A DNA stretch of 64,000 nucleotides. Origin: Thermoplasmata archaeon. GTDB lineage: Archaea > Thermoplasmatota > Thermoplasmata > Methanomassiliicoccales > Methanomethylophilaceae. Of this stretch, positions 7,171 to 20,073 are shown piece by piece; the first letter of the stretch is position 1, and every line of letters starts with the position of its first letter. The notes under the pieces are model-generated. The model saw nothing but the letters and a program-made list of their open reading frames with translations. It ran no database searches and was not told the origin of the DNA. The position numbers were made by a program, and so were the translations under genes. Location: NCBI GenBank assembly GCA_015063185.1, contig SUSY01000003.1, positions 18,401 to 82,400 of the forward strand, in the 5' to 3' direction.

Positions 7171-8292
7171 TCACCAAGTTCCGTAGGTACCGAAGTCCCT
7201 GGCTGCCCTAGTCAGTGCGAGGAGGTTTCCGGGGATGGTGTACGGGGGCGTCTCACAAGTAGTTCCGAGGATGAATCCCTTCTTTGCGTCACGTCCAGCA
7301 AGGACAACTTCCTTTGCTCTCTCGTAGACCTTCTTGGGGTTGGGGTTGATCATCAGCTTGGTGTCGACACCGGGCATGATGGTGGTGACGTCCTGGAACT
7401 CGTTCTTCAGGAGCTCAGCGGGGAACTCGTTCTGTCCCATGTAACCGATCTCAAGAACGTTGAAGGGGGACCATACGAGGTTCTTCTTGAAGACCTTGTA
7501 GTCGGTCTCGTGGTTACCGCAGAGGTGGTAGAAGACCTGGGGTCCTGCTCCTCTTCTGAAACACTGGTCAACGTAGGTGTGCATCTTCTTTGCGGAGAAC
7601 TCCTCGACCATCTCGTCGCTGAAGATATCGTTGTTAGCGAGGATGGATCCGACGATCAGCATTGCCATTCCGTACTTGTCGGAAAGGATGTCTGCTCCGT
7701 TGATAGAAGTACCAACGTAGGTGTCGATCAGATGGTGTGCGATGTCGGGCTCAGTGAAGGTCCACATGATGAAGTTCTCGACTCCGACGAGCTCTGCTCC
7801 TGCACCACAAAGGTCGAATCCGTAGGAGATAGGAACGAGGGTGTGGGGGAGGTTCTGCTGGACGTAGTCGTAGAGACCGTAGAACAGAGGGATGGTGGAT
7901 CCCTTCTTGAGGTCTTCCTTCTCGATGGGGACGAGCTTCTCGACTTCCTCAGGCTCGGACATGATGGGTCCAGTGGAGACTGGAGGCAGAGTGTCCTTGT
8001 ACTCGAGGGTGACACCGAGCTCTCTTACCCAGGGAAGGGAGAAGAACCAGTGTGTAACCGGCAGGAGGTCGAACAGCTCTGCGACGTATCCGACGCAGTG
8101 AATTCCGAGTTCAGGCTTCTCGTAGAAGTCCCTGATCGTGAAACCACAGTGGACTGCGGCGTTCGACAGCATGATGGGGTCGACGTCGACACGGTCGTGG
8201 TAGTTGTCCACGAAGGGGCTTGCGAACCTCTTGGCTGCATTTGCGTGCCAGCCCTTGAGGTCATTTGGGGGAAATAACTCTTCGTAACCCAT
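7171..8292 (-). CDS. uroporphyrinogen decarboxylase-family (MtaA/CmuA-like) methyltransferase
   Basis: UroD-fold pattern with candidate Zn ligands HLCGNH ... GTTCETPP (HxC..C as in corrinoid methyltransferases); long AT-rich upstream region. Confidence 0.7.
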   Translation of the reverse strand: MGYEELFPPNDLKGWHANAAKRFASPFVDNYHDRVDVDPIMLSNAAVHCGFTIRDFYEKPELGIHCVGYVAELFDLLPVTHWFFSLPWVRELGVTLEYKDTLPPVSTGPIMSEPEEVEKLVPIEKEDLKKGSTIPLFYGLYDYVQQNLPHTLVPISYGFDLCGAGAELVGVENFIMWTFTEPDIAHHLIDTYVGTSINGADILSDKYGMAMLIVGSILANNDIFSDEMVEEFSAKKMHTYVDQCFRRGAGPQVFYHLCGNHETDYKVFKKNLVWSPFNVLEIGYMGQNEFPAELLKNEFQDVTTIMPGVDTKLMINPNPKKVYERAKEVVLAGRDAKKGFILGTTCETPPYTIPGNLLALTRAARDFGTYGTW

Positions 8293-11445: not shown

Positions 11446-12351
11446 ATGAAAAACTGGGAATTCGGTAAGGTTCAGGGAAACAAGATTGCCATCGACGAGA
11501 GACTGTCGGACATGATGGGAATCGTCGAAGGGGGATACGTATACAGCACGCTTTTCGAGTACACGGACGAGGAGCCCAAGAAGTATGAACTCATCCTCTC
11601 GATGTATCCTCAGGAGAACTACCGTACTCTCACAAACATCACCCTCTACATGAAGGACGTTCCGGGATCCAGTGCACAGGGTGCAAAATTCCTCGGCGAA
11701 AGAGGGATCAACATCCTCAACTCCATCTCCCTCGATGGGATCTCCGACACCATCATCATCTGGAAGATGTTGGCCGACCTGAGTTTCGCAGGCGAACTGG
11801 GAATCCTCAAGGAAAAGTTCGAGTCCCTCAAGGCTGCCGATGACCCCTCCGTCTCCCTCATCGAGCAGCTGGAGATCAAACCTGCCGACATAGGAAGGGT
11901 GTTCCGTACCGAAGCCAACGTCAACAAGACCGAACTCAGACGCGGTGCACCGGTCACGCTGAAGGACGGCATGTATGACATCTCCGTCGAATACGGGGAC
12001 ATCCTCAAGGACATGGACGGGAAGAACACCCTCATCGTCGCAGATGTGGGCTCATGGATCATGTCGGTCACATTCTTCAAGGAGAAGACCACGCTGAGAA
12101 AGATTTCGATCGATATCCCCGACTGCCCAGGTTCGATAGCGCAGTGCCTCTCCTGGATCGCGGAGCAGGGAATCAACCTGATCTCCGTGTTCAGCAAGGT
12201 CAAGATCTGCTATCAGACCATGACCTTGGACCTTGTCGCAGACTTTGCCGAATGCAGAATGGATAAGGACGAATTCGAAGCTGCGCTCAAATCCGCATTC
12301 GAGAACATGAATGGAATCTACACGCTTACACAGTTCGAAGAGCTGGAGTGA
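11446..12351 (+). CDS. double ACT-domain protein leading the ACS/CoFeSP cluster
   Basis: Two ACT-like units (NITLYMKDVPGSSAQGAKFLGERGINI; ISIDIPDCPGSIAQCLSWIAEQGINLISVF); stop lies 4 nt before the acsB start. Confidence 0.72.
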   Translation: MKNWEFGKVQGNKIAIDERLSDMMGIVEGGYVYSTLFEYTDEEPKKYELILSMYPQENYRTLTNITLYMKDVPGSSAQGAKFLGERGINILNSISLDGISDTIIIWKMLADLSFAGELGILKEKFESLKAADDPSVSLIEQLEIKPADIGRVFRTEANVNKTELRRGAPVTLKDGMYDISVEYGDILKDMDGKNTLIVADVGSWIMSVTFFKEKTTLRKISIDIPDCPGSIAQCLSWIAEQGINLISVFSKVKICYQTMTLDLVADFAECRMDKDEFEAALKSAFENMNGIYTLTQFEELE

Positions 12352-12355
12352 TACC

Positions 12356-14542
12356 ATGGACATTGCGAAAATCATCGAAAGATACGGAGACATCACCGGA
12401 CCTGATTTGGATGTGCTCCTCGGAACGGAGGAGAACATCGATGTCGGAACCCTGCTGTCCATGGCATCCGAGGGGTCCAAGGCAGTTGTGTCGCTGGCCA
12501 GGTCCATGGCATACAGGGCCGCTGCCGATGTGGGCAACGACCACGAACTCATCTATCCGGAGACAGGATACGGCCTCCCAACCATCTGCGCATGGAAGGG
12601 TATCGGATCCATGACCCTTGGACAGGCGATAGAGTTCCTTGACTCGCTTCCAGAAGCCGGTGCCTCGGAGCTCGGGGACGGGTTCGTCGCTGGAGAGAAT
12701 GCCATGTTCGCAGCGGACATCATCGAGGCGATCACATACATCAAAGGGGACCAAGAGCGTGCAGGTTTCATCCCCGACAGGACACTCAGAGGACTCGGAC
12801 TCAGTTTCGTCGACGAGACCATTCCCGGAGCCATCGCGTTCCTCGGATCATTGGAAGATCAGGAGAGCATCAAGAAGATGGCCAGGGACTTCCAGGGCAA
12901 AGGAATGGTGGGGCTCGCATCAGGTGACTACCCCGACCAGTTCGTCGCAGCAGGTGTGAAGATGGGATTGGACAGACTGTTCTATCCGGTCGGATTCTTC
13001 ACCGGAACCGTCCATGCACTCAGCTTCGCGGTCCGTGCGGCACTCACATTCGGCAACATCCAACCCGGAGACAGGGAAGGACTGACCGAATATCTGAAGA
13101 AGAGACCTAAGGTCATCGTCATTCAGAACGGAAAGCTCAACAGACTCGATGCTGCATTCGCATTCGCTGCACTTCTCCACAGTGCATCCATCGTCACAGA
13201 CCAGGACCTGCCTGAGATTCCACACTGTGTGAAGGTCTGCAAGAATCCCTTGGAGATGATCCAGAACGGAATCGAGGAGCGCGGGATCACAGTCAAACTC
13301 GAACCCATCGAACTTCCGGTCGGATACGCACCGTCCTTCGAGGGAGAGGTCGTCAGGAAGCCCGACACGTATGTGGAGGCGGGAGGAACGCGCAGCCCCG
13401 CATTCGAAGTGCTCCTCTCAAGGAAGGAGAACGAGGTCGAGGACGGTAAGGTCACACTCATCGGAAAGGAGATCGACGAGATGGAATCCGGTTCCATCTG
13501 CTCCGTCGCACTCATCGTGGAGGTCTACGGACAGAACATGCACGATGACCTCGAACCCGTCATGGAGAGGAGATTCCATGCGGCCATAAACTTCGCAGAG
13601 GGAGTGTGGCATGCAGGACAGCGCAACTCCAATTGGATAAGGATCAGTAAGACCTCCAAGGAGGCGGGATTCAAGTTCATCGACCTCGGAAGGATCCTCG
13701 TACACAAGATCAAGGAGGAGTTCGGACAGGTCGTCACCAGGGTACAGGCCACCGTCGTCACCGACCCGGAGGAACTCGAGAAACGCCTGGTCGAGGCCAA
13801 GGCGGCATACGATGCCAGGGACGAACGCATGAAAGGACTCAAGGACGATAAGGTCAACGTGTTCTACACATGCGAGATGTGTCAATCCTTCGCACCCACT
13901 CACATATGTATCATCACCCCCGAAAGGCTCGGACTCTGCGGTGCAATCAATTGGCTCGATGCCAAGGCCAGTAACGAGCTCGACCCCAAGGGCCCCAACA
14001 AACCCCTCGACATCGGTACGCCCATCGACGCCGAGAAGGGGGAATGGGAGATCGTCAACGATGCGGTCAGGATGCAGTCCATGGGAACCATCGAGAGAAT
14101 GTGCATGTACAGCATCATGGATGCCCCCATGACCTCATGCGGATGCTTCGAGGCGATCGTCGCCATGACCGTGGATATGCAGGCGGTAATCATCGTCGAC
14201 AGGGACTTCTCCGGAATGACACCTGTTGGAATGAAGTTTTCATCACTCGCAGGTTCGATAGGAGGAGGAAGGCAGACCCCCGGATTCATGGGAATCGGAA
14301 GGAAGTACGTAGCGAGCGAGAAGTTCATCTCCAAGGAAGGAGGAGTGCTGAGGATCGCTTGGATGCCCAAACAGCTGAAAGACTATCTCGCAGAGGACAT
14401 CAGAAAGAGAGGTGAGGAGCTTGAATGCCCTGACCTCCTCGATAAGATAGCTGACGAGACGGTCACCGATGACGCAGAAGGACTCATGGCATGGATGGCC
14501 GAGGTCGGTCACCCCGCACTCATGATGGACCCCCTGCTCTAA
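12356..14542 (+). CDS. acsB: acetyl-CoA synthase, bacterial-type full-length (AcsB/CdhC)
   Basis: 728 aa; A-cluster ligands C-x2-C-x8-C-x9-C (CEMCQSFAPTHICIITPERLGLC) and MTSCGCFEA; VARMFT-like linker and GGGRQTPGFMGIGRKY. Confidence 0.95.
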   Translation: MDIAKIIERYGDITGPDLDVLLGTEENIDVGTLLSMASEGSKAVVSLARSMAYRAAADVGNDHELIYPETGYGLPTICAWKGIGSMTLGQAIEFLDSLPEAGASELGDGFVAGENAMFAADIIEAITYIKGDQERAGFIPDRTLRGLGLSFVDETIPGAIAFLGSLEDQESIKKMARDFQGKGMVGLASGDYPDQFVAAGVKMGLDRLFYPVGFFTGTVHALSFAVRAALTFGNIQPGDREGLTEYLKKRPKVIVIQNGKLNRLDAAFAFAALLHSASIVTDQDLPEIPHCVKVCKNPLEMIQNGIEERGITVKLEPIELPVGYAPSFEGEVVRKPDTYVEAGGTRSPAFEVLLSRKENEVEDGKVTLIGKEIDEMESGSICSVALIVEVYGQNMHDDLEPVMERRFHAAINFAEGVWHAGQRNSNWIRISKTSKEAGFKFIDLGRILVHKIKEEFGQVVTRVQATVVTDPEELEKRLVEAKAAYDARDERMKGLKDDKVNVFYTCEMCQSFAPTHICIITPERLGLCGAINWLDAKASNELDPKGPNKPLDIGTPIDAEKGEWEIVNDAVRMQSMGTIERMCMYSIMDAPMTSCGCFEAIVAMTVDMQAVIIVDRDFSGMTPVGMKFSSLAGSIGGGRQTPGFMGIGRKYVASEKFISKEGGVLRIAWMPKQLKDYLAEDIRKRGEELECPDLLDKIADETVTDDAEGLMAWMAEVGHPALMMDPLL

Positions 14543-14554
14543 GGAGAATCTACA

Positions 14555-15484
14555 ATGACAGACATACCCCCAGTCAATGAGAAGTACACCGGCACGATCG
14601 GAGAGGTCGTACTCGGTAAGGGAGATTACATAGTGGGCGGAGCGAAGGGTATGCCCTTCCTCTCCTTCGAGAACCGCACCAACAGGAGACCCATCGTCGC
14701 AGGAGAGGTTTTCGACTCCATCGTCGATTACCCCGAACTCGCAGCCAAAATGTTCGACGGACGTCAGAAGGACCCTGTCGAGTGGGCACTCATGTGGAAG
14801 TCCATGGGTGTCGACATGATCTGCGTCAGGCTCGTCAGCACTGACCCCGCCAAGGGCGGCACGTCCCCCGAAGCCTGTGCGGAACTCGTGAAGAAGATCT
14901 CCGACAGGACAGGACTCCCAATCATCGTCAGCGGATGCGGCATCCTCGATGTCGACATCCCCGTGTTCACAGCAGTCAGCGCCGCAGTCACGGATAGCAG
15001 ACTTATCCTTTCCAAGGTGGACGAGGACGAGTACAAGAAGCTCGCCACCGTCGCCATCGCCAACAACCACATCATCATCGGATTCGCCAACTTGGACGTC
15101 AACCTGTCCAAGCAGATGAACATCCTCCTCACCGACTTCGGAGTGAAGAAGGAGAACATCCTCACGGATCCGCTCATGGCACCCCTCGGAATGGGACTGG
15201 ACTACTCCTACTCGGTCAACGAGAGGATCAGGATCTCTGGACTCATGGGGGACAAGATGCTCCAGCAGCCTCTGATCTGCGACTGTACCGGTGCATGGGA
15301 TGTGAGCGATGCCATCAACGAGGAGGATCCCGCTCTTGGTGATGCCGGACTCAGGGCCACTTGGTGGGAGGCCATGACCGCTATGTCCGCCATCGTATCC
15401 GGTGCCGACATGGTCATCATGCGTGGCCCCGGAGCGGCCGATATGATCCTCGGATACTGCGACGAACTCAGGGATGTGATCTGA
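14555..15484 (+). CDS. acsD: corrinoid iron-sulfur protein small subunit (AcsD/CdhD)
   Basis: TIM-barrel pattern; DMICVRLVSTDP, DPLMAPLGMGLDYSYSVNERIR, VIMRGPGAADMI. Confidence 0.93.
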   Translation: MTDIPPVNEKYTGTIGEVVLGKGDYIVGGAKGMPFLSFENRTNRRPIVAGEVFDSIVDYPELAAKMFDGRQKDPVEWALMWKSMGVDMICVRLVSTDPAKGGTSPEACAELVKKISDRTGLPIIVSGCGILDVDIPVFTAVSAAVTDSRLILSKVDEDEYKKLATVAIANNHIIIGFANLDVNLSKQMNILLTDFGVKKENILTDPLMAPLGMGLDYSYSVNERIRISGLMGDKMLQQPLICDCTGAWDVSDAINEEDPALGDAGLRATWWEAMTAMSAIVSGADMVIMRGPGAADMILGYCDELRDVI

Positions 15485-16797
15485 TGCCTACCGCTATCGA
15501 ATTCTTCAAACTCCTGCCCAAGACCAACTGTAAAGATTGCGGACAGCCTACGTGCCTCGCATTCGCTATGCTTCTGTCCAACCAGAAGGCCAAGATCGAG
15601 GACTGCCCCCATGTCAAACAGGAAGCCAAGGAGACCCTCGCAGAGGCATCCGCACCACCTGTCAGGACCATCGAGGTCGGAGACATCAAGATGGGAGGAG
15701 AGACCGTACTGTACAGGCACGAGCGTCGCTTCAACAACCCGATCGCATACGCGCTCACCGTTTCGGACAGACTTGACACGAACGCCATCGAAGAGAGGGT
15801 CGCATACATCAAATCCATCGCCTTCGACAGGGTCGGTATGATCTTCAAGGTCGACATGGTGTCCGTCAGGAACGACTCCGGTAACGCTGATGAGTTCGCA
15901 CGTGCCGTGAAGGATGTCTGTGCAACCTGGAAGGACCCGATCGTCATCGAGTCCACCGATGCCGATGCCATCAAGGCAGCTTTGTCGGTAGCTGATAGGA
16001 AACCACTGATCTATGGTGCCGATAAAGACAGATTGGAGACATACGTCAACATCGCCAGGGAGAACAAGTGTCCTCTCGCATTGATCTGTGACGGTCCGGA
16101 AGGTGCATTGGAGCTCACCGAGGCATGCGAGAAGATGGGATTCACCGACCTGATCCTCGACCTGACCACCGAAAATCTCAAGGAGACCCTTGAGGAACAG
16201 ACCATAGTCAGACGTGCCGCGATCAAGAAGAAGTTCAAACCCTTCGCATACCCGATGATGAACAGGGTCGGTTCCGGCGAATATGCCGTGGCCACCGCAG
16301 TGATGTCCACACTGAAGTACGGAAGCCTGGTCATCTTCGACGACCTGAAGAACTACGAGGCACTGCCCCTGTTCACCCTCAGGCAGAACATCTACACGGA
16401 CCCGCAGGTACCGATCCAGGTGAAACAGGACCTGTACCCCATCGGAAACCCCGATGAGCACTCGCCCATCATGTTCACCACCAACTTCTCCCTCACGTAC
16501 TTCACCGTACGTGCGGACATCGAGAAGTCGAAGATCCCGGTGTGGTTGCAGATCGTCAATACGGAGGGACTGTCCGTCCTCACCGCATACTCCGCCGGAA
16601 AGTTCGAACCGGAGCGCATCGCGGACGCGTTCGCGGAATCGGGTGTACTGTCCAAGTCTGACGGGCCCGTCATCATCCCCGGACTGGTCACGCGCATCTC
16701 CGGTAAGCTTCAGGAACTCATCGGAAGGAAGGTCGTCGTCGGAACCAACGAGTCCCGTGACATTCCGAAACACCTTAGGGAACTCACTTCACAATGA
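15484..16797 (+). CDS. acsC: corrinoid iron-sulfur protein large subunit (AcsC/CdhE)
   Basis: CX2CX4CX16C cluster motif (CKDCGQPTCLAFAMLLSNQKAKIEDCP), GGETVLYRHERRFNNP; start overlaps the acsD stop (TGATG). Confidence 0.94.
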   Translation: MPTAIEFFKLLPKTNCKDCGQPTCLAFAMLLSNQKAKIEDCPHVKQEAKETLAEASAPPVRTIEVGDIKMGGETVLYRHERRFNNPIAYALTVSDRLDTNAIEERVAYIKSIAFDRVGMIFKVDMVSVRNDSGNADEFARAVKDVCATWKDPIVIESTDADAIKAALSVADRKPLIYGADKDRLETYVNIARENKCPLALICDGPEGALELTEACEKMGFTDLILDLTTENLKETLEEQTIVRRAAIKKKFKPFAYPMMNRVGSGEYAVATAVMSTLKYGSLVIFDDLKNYEALPLFTLRQNIYTDPQVPIQVKQDLYPIGNPDEHSPIMFTTNFSLTYFTVRADIEKSKIPVWLQIVNTEGLSVLTAYSAGKFEPERIADAFAESGVLSKSDGPVIIPGLVTRISGKLQELIGRKVVVGTNESRDIPKHLRELTSQ

Positions 16798-17533
16798 GTT
16801 CCGCAAGATGTCCCACCGACTTCGCGAAAGCGGAGTCGTCCGGGACATCCACGACTTCTCCCCTCATCGCACAAGCGGTGACATGATCGTCACGTTCGAT
16901 CGGTACCACTTCGGTAAGACCAAGGCGTGCAGCCTCATCCATCAATGGAGTATAATCCATCTGAGGTATGTTGTTGATCACCAATATCCTACGTCCGACC
17001 TTCACACCGACCTCGTCCGCCAACTGAGACAGGCGTGCGGCGGTACGTACCCCTGTGATGGTGGGGTCGGATACGAGCACCAATACATCCGCACGTGGCA
17101 AGACCTTCCTGGAAAGATGCTCCATACCGGCCTCGTTGTCCACGACCGTGAACCTGTACTTCGGGATCATGTCGTTGAAACAGTTCCTAAGGACATCGTT
17201 GACGAAACAGTAACAACCCTCCCCTTCCGGCCTACCCATGACAAGAAGGTCCACATTGTCCCCCTCTGATACGTTCTGTTGAACCTTGGTGAGGATATAG
17301 TCCTGTTTACTGATGCTCGCGGGGACCTGATCGGGATCCGCGACGAGATCATTCCTGATGCCACCGATGGTACCGAACGTCTCGAGACCCAATTTCTCAC
17401 CGAGATTCGAATTCGGATCCGCATCCACTGCCAATACCAAGGACCTCTTCGCAAGATTACGGATGAGTTGCGAGGAAATGGTGCTCTTACCGACGCCGCC
17501 CTTTCCCGCGAATGCTATGATCACAGACCGCAC
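16784..17533 (-). CDS. CooC/AcsF-type nickel-insertion ATPase
   Basis: FAGKGGVGKST P-loop, DADPNSNLGEKLG, GRPEGEGCYCFVN CxC motif, DNEAGMEHLSR. Confidence 0.93.
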   Translation of the reverse strand: MRSVIIAFAGKGGVGKSTISSQLIRNLAKRSLVLAVDADPNSNLGEKLGLETFGTIGGIRNDLVADPDQVPASISKQDYILTKVQQNVSEGDNVDLLVMGRPEGEGCYCFVNDVLRNCFNDMIPKYRFTVVDNEAGMEHLSRKVLPRADVLVLVSDPTITGVRTAARLSQLADEVGVKVGRRILVINNIPQMDYTPLMDEAARLGLTEVVPIERDDHVTACAMRGEVVDVPDDSAFAKSVGHLAELIVK

Positions 17534-18528
17534 CTCTTCCTCATCTCTATGGACAATCCCTGAAGGAGATCGAACACGTTGTCAAGGAGTTCCTCATCTG
17601 CACCGCCGAGACCGCACTGAGGGGTCAACAAAGACTGGTGGATGAGGAGTTCCCTATCGACACCTTTCGATACCAGATCGTCGATGTGTTCCATCATACG
17701 GTCCGCTAGCGTCTCGGGAGTCTCACCCTCTATGAGGTTGCTGTTGGGAACGATGCCCCATGCAAGGGAACCCCCTCTCTTCAGGAAATCGGAGATCTCC
17801 TCGGGGTAGAGCGTTATATTCTTTCCGTACGCGTACGCATCGAAGTTCAGAATGTCGATGTTGGTCCTGAGCACCAGGGACCAATTGGTGTTCCCACAAC
17901 AATGGATGGCCTTCTGACAGTCCACACCCTCCATCGCCTCGTTGATCCATGAAAGCGCCTCCTCATCCGAAATGGATGCGAAAGGTGTTCCGAGGAGCGA
18001 AAGTGAGGGTTCGTCGAAGAACATGATGACGTTATCACAGTATTCCTTAAGCTTCCTGACCTGCCATCTTGCTGACAGATTGACGGTCTTCCTCACGATC
18101 TCCCCATAGGATTCGTCATAGATCGTCGGACGACCGGTTACATCCTGGACCTGAAGGCCCTCGCTGATGGGACCGGTGACCTGCCCCTTGATGGCCCTGA
18201 GACCGGAAAGATCGCGACCGATCATCTCATAGAATCCTGCGAAGTGTTCGGGCATAGCCTCGTAGTAATCAAGGTTCTCCTCGATGATCGCCATGTATGC
18301 TTCGGTGGGATCGTAATCGTTCAGATCCACCATGACCTTGTCCCCCTCCTCGATCAATCCGGGGAGATGCTCACCGGTCTGGAGATACATTCCCTCTTTG
18401 TAACCGAGTGCTGGCATCTGGGGCCACATCGGGATGTCCACACGTCCATCCAATACCATGTCCACGGCTGCCTTCGGATCCTTCTGAGGCATCGAGCCGA
18501 TGAGTGTAGTCGCGAAATTCCAATCCAT
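17521..18528 (-). CDS. core MetE-like folate-independent methionine synthase (MesB-like)
   Basis: 335 aa, C-terminal MetE barrel only: LIGSMPQ, KGQVTGPIS, FFDEPSLSLLG, Zn motif HCCGNTNW, LLTPQCGLGG. Confidence 0.85.
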   Translation of the reverse strand: MDWNFATTLIGSMPQKDPKAAVDMVLDGRVDIPMWPQMPALGYKEGMYLQTGEHLPGLIEEGDKVMVDLNDYDPTEAYMAIIEENLDYYEAMPEHFAGFYEMIGRDLSGLRAIKGQVTGPISEGLQVQDVTGRPTIYDESYGEIVRKTVNLSARWQVRKLKEYCDNVIMFFDEPSLSLLGTPFASISDEEALSWINEAMEGVDCQKAIHCCGNTNWSLVLRTNIDILNFDAYAYGKNITLYPEEISDFLKRGGSLAWGIVPNSNLIEGETPETLADRMMEHIDDLVSKGVDRELLIHQSLLTPQCGLGGADEELLDNVFDLLQGLSIEMRKRCGL

Positions 18529-18573
18529 ATGAGGGTGGAATCCTCATGTTCCTATAATAAGGCGCGCGCACGC

Positions 18574-20073
18574 TCAGAAACGCACGGAAGGGAACAATGC
18601 GGAATCGGTATGCGGGATGAATTGGGCCGATGTGTACTCGTCATAGAACACGGGGTCCGAACTGAGATCGAGATATGTCATCTTGGCGAACGCATCGTCT
18701 ATACGCTCACGGAAGGATCCGGATACCAGTGCAGCCCTCGCACCGGCCAAGGAGGAATTTCCCAGATACACGAACTTGTCCGCCCCGACATCAGGGAACA
18801 TGCCTATCGTGATGGCCGAATCCATGTTGATGAAATTACCGAAACCTCCTGCGATGTACACCTTCTCCAGATCGGAGAACTCGAGACCCAGATTCCTGAC
18901 CAACGACCTCGTGGCCGAAAATATCGCTGCCTTGGTCATGATGACGTCCTTGATCTCCGGCTCCGAGATACCTATGTCCCCATGGACGATGTACCTTCCA
19001 TCCATCAATCTGGCACTATCTGTGAAGTTACCACGTTTGTCTATGATGTCATTGAGATAGAGCTGTGCGATCAGATCGATTATACCTGATCCGCAGATGC
19101 CTTTCGGCTCCATTCCACCGATCACAGTGAATCTGGCAATGCCATCCTCGATGACAATACTGTCTATGGCACCGGGGCGGGCCATCATCCCAGACCTCAG
19201 ATTGCCTCCTTCGAACGCAGGGCCTGCGGATGATGAACAGACCATCATCATGTCCTTATTGCCTAATGCGACCTCACCGTTGGTCCCTACATCTATCAAA
19301 AGACTTATTCCTTCGGAAATGTCCATCCCGGCATAGACGATATCACTGGTGATGTCCCCACCGACATAGGCTGAGATACAAGGCATCGTCACAACTCTGG
19401 CACTTTTGGAAACATCGAGTCCGCTCTCTTCACCGGTGATGTCGGAGGATGTTATGACTGGAACATATGGTTCTTCTCTGATCGGTGTAGGGTCCACACC
19501 CACGAACAGATGCTCCATCACGGTGTTACCTGCGATGTAGACGGACTCGATGTTGTCCCCACCGCCCGCACGCTCGATGATCCCATTCATAGTCTTCAGG
19601 ATGAGGCCCCTGAGTTCGGATGTGCCACCATCGGCCGCATGCTGTATCCTTGCAAGTACATCGTCCCCAAGGACCTTCTGTCCATTCACATCGGAGAATG
19701 ACGAGATGCATCTACCATCGGACATGTCTATGAGATCGGCAGCGACCGTGGTGGTACCGATGTCCACTGCCAGACCCAGTCCGCTGGATAATGGGTCGAA
19801 GTCCCCGACATCGGACTCCAGGTAGTCCACTGCAGCGATCACCTTGGAACCATCGACCTCCGGAACATTAACGGTCATGTCCCTATCCACGTACGTAACA
19901 CAAGCGAGGAGACGATCGTCACCGATCTGTACGACACAACGGCCGCACCTACCTGTTCCGCCACAGGGTGTGGCGATCTGAACACCTGCAGATTTGGCCG
20001 CATCCGATACCGATGTACCTGCATCCACGACGACCCCCTTTCCGGATGGGAGGAACCTCACTGTGAAACCCAT
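18574..20073 (-). CDS. reductive activator of corrinoid protein (RACo/AcsV-like), 2Fe-2S plus ASKHA domain
   Basis: CGGTGRCGRC...LLACVT 2Fe-2S motif; AVDIGTTTVAADL; DVGTNGEVALGN; GICGSGIIDLIAQL; IAGGFGNFINMDSAI. Confidence 0.92.
   Translation of the reverse strand: MGFTVRFLPSGKGVVVDAGTSVSDAAKSAGVQIATPCGGTGRCGRCVVQIGDDRLLACVTYVDRDMTVNVPEVDGSKVIAAVDYLESDVGDFDPLSSGLGLAVDIGTTTVAADLIDMSDGRCISSFSDVNGQKVLGDDVLARIQHAADGGTSELRGLILKTMNGIIERAGGGDNIESVYIAGNTVMEHLFVGVDPTPIREEPYVPVITSSDITGEESGLDVSKSARVVTMPCISAYVGGDITSDIVYAGMDISEGISLLIDVGTNGEVALGNKDMMMVCSSSAGPAFEGGNLRSGMMARPGAIDSIVIEDGIARFTVIGGMEPKGICGSGIIDLIAQLYLNDIIDKRGNFTDSARLMDGRYIVHGDIGISEPEIKDVIMTKAAIFSATRSLVRNLGLEFSDLEKVYIAGGFGNFINMDSAITIGMFPDVGADKFVYLGNSSLAGARAALVSGSFRERIDDAFAKMTYLDLSSDPVFYDEYTSAQFIPHTDSALFPSVRF

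Follow-up and report, generated by a model that had tools for sequence, protein, structure and literature searches.

The incomplete Wood-Ljungdahl pathway of Dehalococcoides mccartyi comprises the acetyl-CoA synthase (ACS) AcsB, the corrinoid iron-sulfur protein (CoFeSP) AcsCD and the core-MetE protein MesB, and lacks CODH, MTHFR and AcsE (PMC7005905, PMC7857596). As recounted in PMC7005905 (citing Zhuang et al. 2014) and in PMC7857596, acetate labels the methyl group of methionine in this organism and CO leaves the cell; the explanation given in PMC7005905, again drawing on Zhuang et al. 2014, is that ACS supplies methyl groups for anabolism without CODH. For the Methanomassiliicoccales, Price et al. 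2021 predicted that MesB uses CoFeSP, and in that paper the order is counted as having the Wood-Ljungdahl pathway on the strength of acsBCD (PMC7857596). Among archaea, ACS has been seen before without CODH subunits in Methanimicrococcus blatticola, which has CdhCDE without CdhAB and keeps Mer and Mtr; methyl-H4MPT has been proposed as the source for its methionine, and an anabolic role for CdhCDE as well as CO detoxification have been considered (PMC9723798, PMC11362671). Like the organisms examined here, it is a gut methyl-reducing methanogen that retains ACS and CoFeSP but no longer has the CODH subunits.

Neither the gene logic nor the enzyme families are new to the literature, and the link between MesB and CoFeSP in this order has been published as well. 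What is new is an order-wide survey, the occurrence of the CODH-less arrangement in archaea, a genus with no other recognised methyl route, and fusion and relic forms of CODH. Our search of the literature, which reached a minority of subscription journals, found no published report of CODH-less ACS with MesB in the Methanomassiliicoccales.

The window, a stretch of 64,000 nucleotides, carries two convergent blocks between positions 11446 and 20073, ACTp-AcsB-AcsD-AcsC on the forward strand and CooC-MesB-RACo on the reverse (Table 1). All seven open reading frames were located with the coordinates and strands that a preliminary description had claimed. Upstream of the cluster is an MtaA-like methyltransferase gene that is also found in G115 and G118; its identity to two congeners (87-88%) exceeds the conservation of the cluster genes in those comparisons.

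Table 1. Positions of the cluster genes and of the other genes discussed (window coordinates, or coordinates within a locus where its identifier is given).
Feature	Position	Strand	Basis or remark
MtaA-like methyltransferase gene	7171-8292		upstream of cluster
ACT protein (ACTp), tandem ACT-fold, regulator-like	11446-12351	+	immediately upstream of acsB; weak ACT matches and model
AcsB, bacterial-type acetyl-CoA synthase, N-terminal domain present	12359-14542	+	NCBIfam/Pfam, A-cluster cysteines
AcsD, small CoFeSP subunit	14555-15484	+	family searches
AcsC, large corrinoid-binding CoFeSP subunit	15484-16797	+	family searches, 4Fe-4S motif
CooC/AcsF-like nickel-insertion ATPase	16784-17533	-	CxC motif; 13-base overlap with mesB
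MesB-type core methionine synthase, 335 aa	17521-18528	-	zinc ligands, fold
RACo, CoFeSP reductive activator, linker shortened	18574-20073	-	domain matches
CODH-ACS fusion, examples	L053 11011-15084; L051 11031-15101		G003, G135 and others
Extended AcsB	L052 9338-12409; L046 8785-11694		also L067-L071, L077, L078
MesB of G029	L057 9061-10071		zinc ligands intact
AcsB of G016, split by an intein	L056 10408-13989		

AcsB scores 838.9 bits against the NCBIfam model CODH_ACS_al_bet (curated cut-off 800) and AcsC 515.9 bits against its family (cut-off 306), whilst AcsD, with 279.7 bits against the ACS delta family, falls just below the cut-off of 280. RACo contains the domains RACo_C_ter, Raco_middle and Fer2, and the best alignment of the CooC-like ATPase is to CooC 3kje. 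As in the bacterial CODH/ACS (Moorella, PDB 1oao), AcsB is full-length and has all its A-cluster ligands: it aligns to Moorella ACS across almost the full length and keeps the six A-cluster cysteines. Unlike the bacterial complex, the cluster has no CODH subunit. In the archaeal ACDS (Cdh), the ACS subunit lacks the N-terminal domain and is accompanied by CdhA/B; in contrast, the AcsB found here begins with the bacterial domain CODH_A_N (Pfam), and the sole CODH-superfamily (Prismane) match in its genome was rejected as a CODH, being the hybrid-cluster protein (Hcp). ACTp precedes AcsB in most loci compared. The top PDB matches of its model (pLDDT 85.6) are ACT-domain regulators, and to judge from this model it probably has a regulatory role.

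For MesB, Pfam yielded no match and NCBIfam just a weak one, so that its identity had to be judged from residues and fold. Across 18 sequences its zinc ligands H209, C211, D230 and C305 never vary, and this HCDC signature is spaced much as in D. mccartyi MesB (214, 216, 235, 311), with a final gap of 75 rather than 76. The best PDB matches of the model (pLDDT 91) are MetE structures, and these matches and the length of the protein identify a single catalytic domain without the folate-binding half. Pentatricopeptide matches returned by a sequence search of the PDB are repeat artefacts. In a comparison set that excludes the characterised D. mccartyi protein, the nearest MesB sequences outside the order come from Dehalococcoidia and other Chloroflexota, at ~40-44% identity. 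Some bacterial MAGs (L128, L145) have MesB adjoining CooC, CooS and AcsB, and in all six genomes sampled from the window's genus CoFeSP (AcsC/AcsD) is encoded in the same cluster as MesB.

AcsB, CoFeSP, the nickel chaperone and RACo had been described as apparently intact, and this is borne out: the N-terminal 4Fe-4S cysteine motif of AcsC, the CxC nickel motif of the CooC-like protein and the 2Fe-2S cysteines of RACo are all kept. Strong purifying selection acts on each of the seven genes. In comparisons with the nearest congener, G116, dN/dS is 0.034-0.069 (0.041 for AcsB); these values are approximate because dS is high, yet they are far from neutral. They bear on the idea that the cluster is a decaying Wood-Ljungdahl remnant with no present role, as might be suspected from the repeated loss of CODH in the order and from a CODH relic apparently decaying in sister lineages. 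However, dN/dS far below 1 in every gene strongly disfavours decay, all frames are open and every metal ligand is kept, and a remnant is hardly credible.

The assembly containing the window is a draft (1.41 Mb, 52 contigs, 87% complete), and the genus was sampled with six genomes that are 85-99% complete; among named records, those closest to it are genomes of Candidatus Methanomethylophilaceae and of Methanomassiliicoccales that come from ruminants as well as other sources. AcsB, CoFeSP and MesB are present in six of six. Family searches of the whole genomes for CODH, AcsE, MTHFR (MetF-type reductase), MtrH, MetH and MetE recognised none in any of the six, and the absence of CODH and AcsE from the window, already remarked upon in the preliminary description, extends to MTHFR and to the rest of the window's own genome. 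CODH-family matches in the genus reach the level of hybrid-cluster proteins only. AcsE was tallied from the number of Pterin_bind matches per genome, three of which were named by family search; each genome of the genus has a single match, which in the window's own genome is dihydropteroate synthase. Across the 148 genomes sampled from the order, no MetH-type methionine synthase was found and MetE/MesA gave weak partial matches only (PF01717 matches of 18-28 bits in 36 genomes, mostly covering half the model, were rejected), and MesB is thus the only methionine synthase recognised.

The preliminary description had entertained a conventional split pathway, with CODH and AcsE/MetF encoded elsewhere in the genome. 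Such genes could have been missed in a draft of this completeness and fragmentation or be too divergent to detect, and CODH as well as MTHFR with AcsE do exist in other genomes of the order. However, none of the six genomes of the genus, some of them 92-99% complete, has CODH, AcsE or MTHFR, and across the order 55 genomes give CODH and 49 give MTHFR in the same searches. If gaps are independent, a gene that is present would escape all six assemblies through incompleteness alone with a probability of ~5e-8. A split pathway is thus very improbable in our estimation.

As far as genes can be recognised from sequence, the path from AcsB through CoFeSP to MesB is the only complete route in the genus. 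It seems likely that the cluster is an anabolic methyl-supply module, in which the methyl group of acetyl-CoA passes to CoFeSP and on to MesB to make methionine, with CO as a by-product. The observations behind this reading are the gene content, the intact catalytic residues, the selection, the conserved linkage and the absence of other known routes. Acetate would be activated to acetyl-CoA, and we infer that ACS runs in the direction of cleavage: AcsB would hand the methyl group on to CoFeSP, at its Co(I) corrinoid, with release of CoA and CO, and MesB would transfer it directly from CoFeSP to homocysteine, giving methionine and hence SAM. CooC would load AcsB with nickel, RACo would re-reduce CoFeSP after oxidation of its cobalt, and ACTp probably senses a small molecule and regulates the module. 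Both S-adenosylhomocysteine hydrolase and an ADP-forming-type acyl-CoA synthetase occur in six of six genomes of the genus, making the provision of homocysteine and the conversion of acetate to acetyl-CoA plausible.

Methyl supply by ACS without CODH was also the proposal of the preliminary description. The gene content of all six genomes agrees with it, but the idea is not a new one, having been published for D. mccartyi (PMC7005905). The D. mccartyi gene set, which carries the acetate methyl to methionine, lends the module support by analogy. The two systems are alike in their genes and their gaps, with AcsB and AcsCD present and CODH, MTHFR, AcsE and MetH/MetE absent from the genus; the literature yielded neither biochemical nor labelling studies of these archaea. 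D. mccartyi is a bacterium that uses organohalide respiration, whereas the present system belongs to a methyl-reducing methanogenic archaeal order and is distinguished by convergent operons, CooC, RACo, an ACT protein and signs of CODH loss within the order.

Organisms of this order live on methyl-corrinoids, so that a methyl-corrinoid donor is abundant. The methanogenic corrinoid proteins for methanol or methylamine might feed CoFeSP or MesB through an unrecognised or promiscuous methyltransferase, leaving ACS to be used otherwise, for example to combine that methyl group with CO from the environment into acetyl-CoA. The conserved MtaA-like gene upstream of the cluster is compatible with such a supply, as is the existence in G029 of a MesB without ACS or CoFeSP. 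On the other hand, the search found no methyltransferase to CoFeSP, the linkage of MesB with AcsB, CoFeSP and RACo holds across the order, and a CO-dependent synthase without CODH would require CO from outside. A methanogenic corrinoid source is thus unlikely, though it deserves to be kept in mind.

The survey of co-occurrence across the order supports the coupling of ACS to MesB. AcsB is present in 74 and MesB in 73 of the 148 genomes; 66 have both, 67 neither and 15 only one (Fisher p 2e-24, in a test that treats genomes as independent, which is untrue). AcsC lies on the contig with MesB, or on its broken neighbour, in five of the seven genomes that have MesB but no AcsB, and in one further genome the contig with MesB is very short, so that in these cases AcsB may have been lost at contig ends. 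G029 (96% complete), whose MesB has intact zinc ligands, looks like a real exception to the pairing.

CODH was scored as present above ~100 bits with TIGR01702, a threshold set here; hybrid-cluster-like matches to this model score ~40 bits or less. Among the 66 genomes with both AcsB and MesB, 33 have CODH and MTHFR, eight CODH only, 13 MTHFR only and 12 neither. Thus, the CODH-less occurrence of AcsB with MesB extends to 25 of the 66, and half of the 12 that also lack MTHFR are at least 90% complete. In the 13 genomes with MTHFR but no CODH, the methyl group could be derived from folate; in two MTHFR-positive genomes read closely (G005, G131), a methyl-H4folate:CoFeSP methyltransferase is encoded near MTHFR. 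These results agree with the prediction in PMC7857596 in that MesB is the sole methionine synthase recognised and CoFeSP its probable donor. They differ in that CODH is missing from many members of the order and MTHFR/AcsE from some as well, so that in the latter acetyl-CoA is the one methyl source still recognised. This loss of CODH stays hidden when acsBCD alone is used to score the Wood-Ljungdahl pathway, as in PMC7857596.

Several families in the order encode CODH and ACS in one chain of ~1360 aa in which the CODH metal-binding cysteines are present. Other genomes have an AcsB of ~1000 aa, with an N-terminal extension of ~290 aa that has no Pfam match. The extension aligns to the C-terminal region of CODH, with an hhalign probability of 96% and E 7e-10 where the match is clearest but only weakly in two subsets, and its metal-binding motifs are lost; by sequence comparison, it looks like a decayed relic of the CODH C-terminus. 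That the ~1000-aa proteins are ACT-AcsB fusions was rejected, since the ACT gene of G106 is separate and the extension matches CODH. The fusion and relic forms look like intermediates in the loss of CODH within the order.

The window's genus, a single fully supported clade in a tree of 48 AcsB sequences, has neither form. Around 11 changes of CODH state are needed on this tree, a number that incomplete genomes may inflate. A broader proposal is that the ACS of one lineage of gut methanogens is a dedicated acetyl-CoA decarbonylase, providing the SAM methyl from acetate with CO as an obligate by-product, and that this state came about through repeated decay, in one archaeal order, of the CODH half of an ancestral CODH-ACS fusion in a single chain. 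This could equally turn out to be right or wrong; the AcsB tree has only one bacterial sequence, on a long branch, so the root, and hence the claim of an ancestral fusion, is unsure.

For methyl-reducing methanogens that lack a methyl-pterin route, the proposed methyl-supply module offers a specific, testable answer to the source of the methionine and SAM methyl group. On this reading, some rumen methanogens would need acetate for their methyl pool and would release CO.

Other combinations of these genes occur in the order. Two genomes of group g14 (G120, G122; loci L048, L049) keep ACTp, a divergent AcsB, CooC and RACo in a cluster without AcsD, AcsC or MesB, and a CoFeSP-family match is listed for only one genome of the group. 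The g14 AcsB keeps its A-cluster cysteines, with CGC changed to CSC, and its presence in a cluster without CoFeSP and MesB makes another role for ACS possible. Stand-alone CODH genes are found in genomes without ACS, including G057, G060 and G073 (L022-L026). In G016, an intein with a LAGLIDADG domain splits AcsB at the CxxC motif of the A-cluster, and the frame also breaks downstream.
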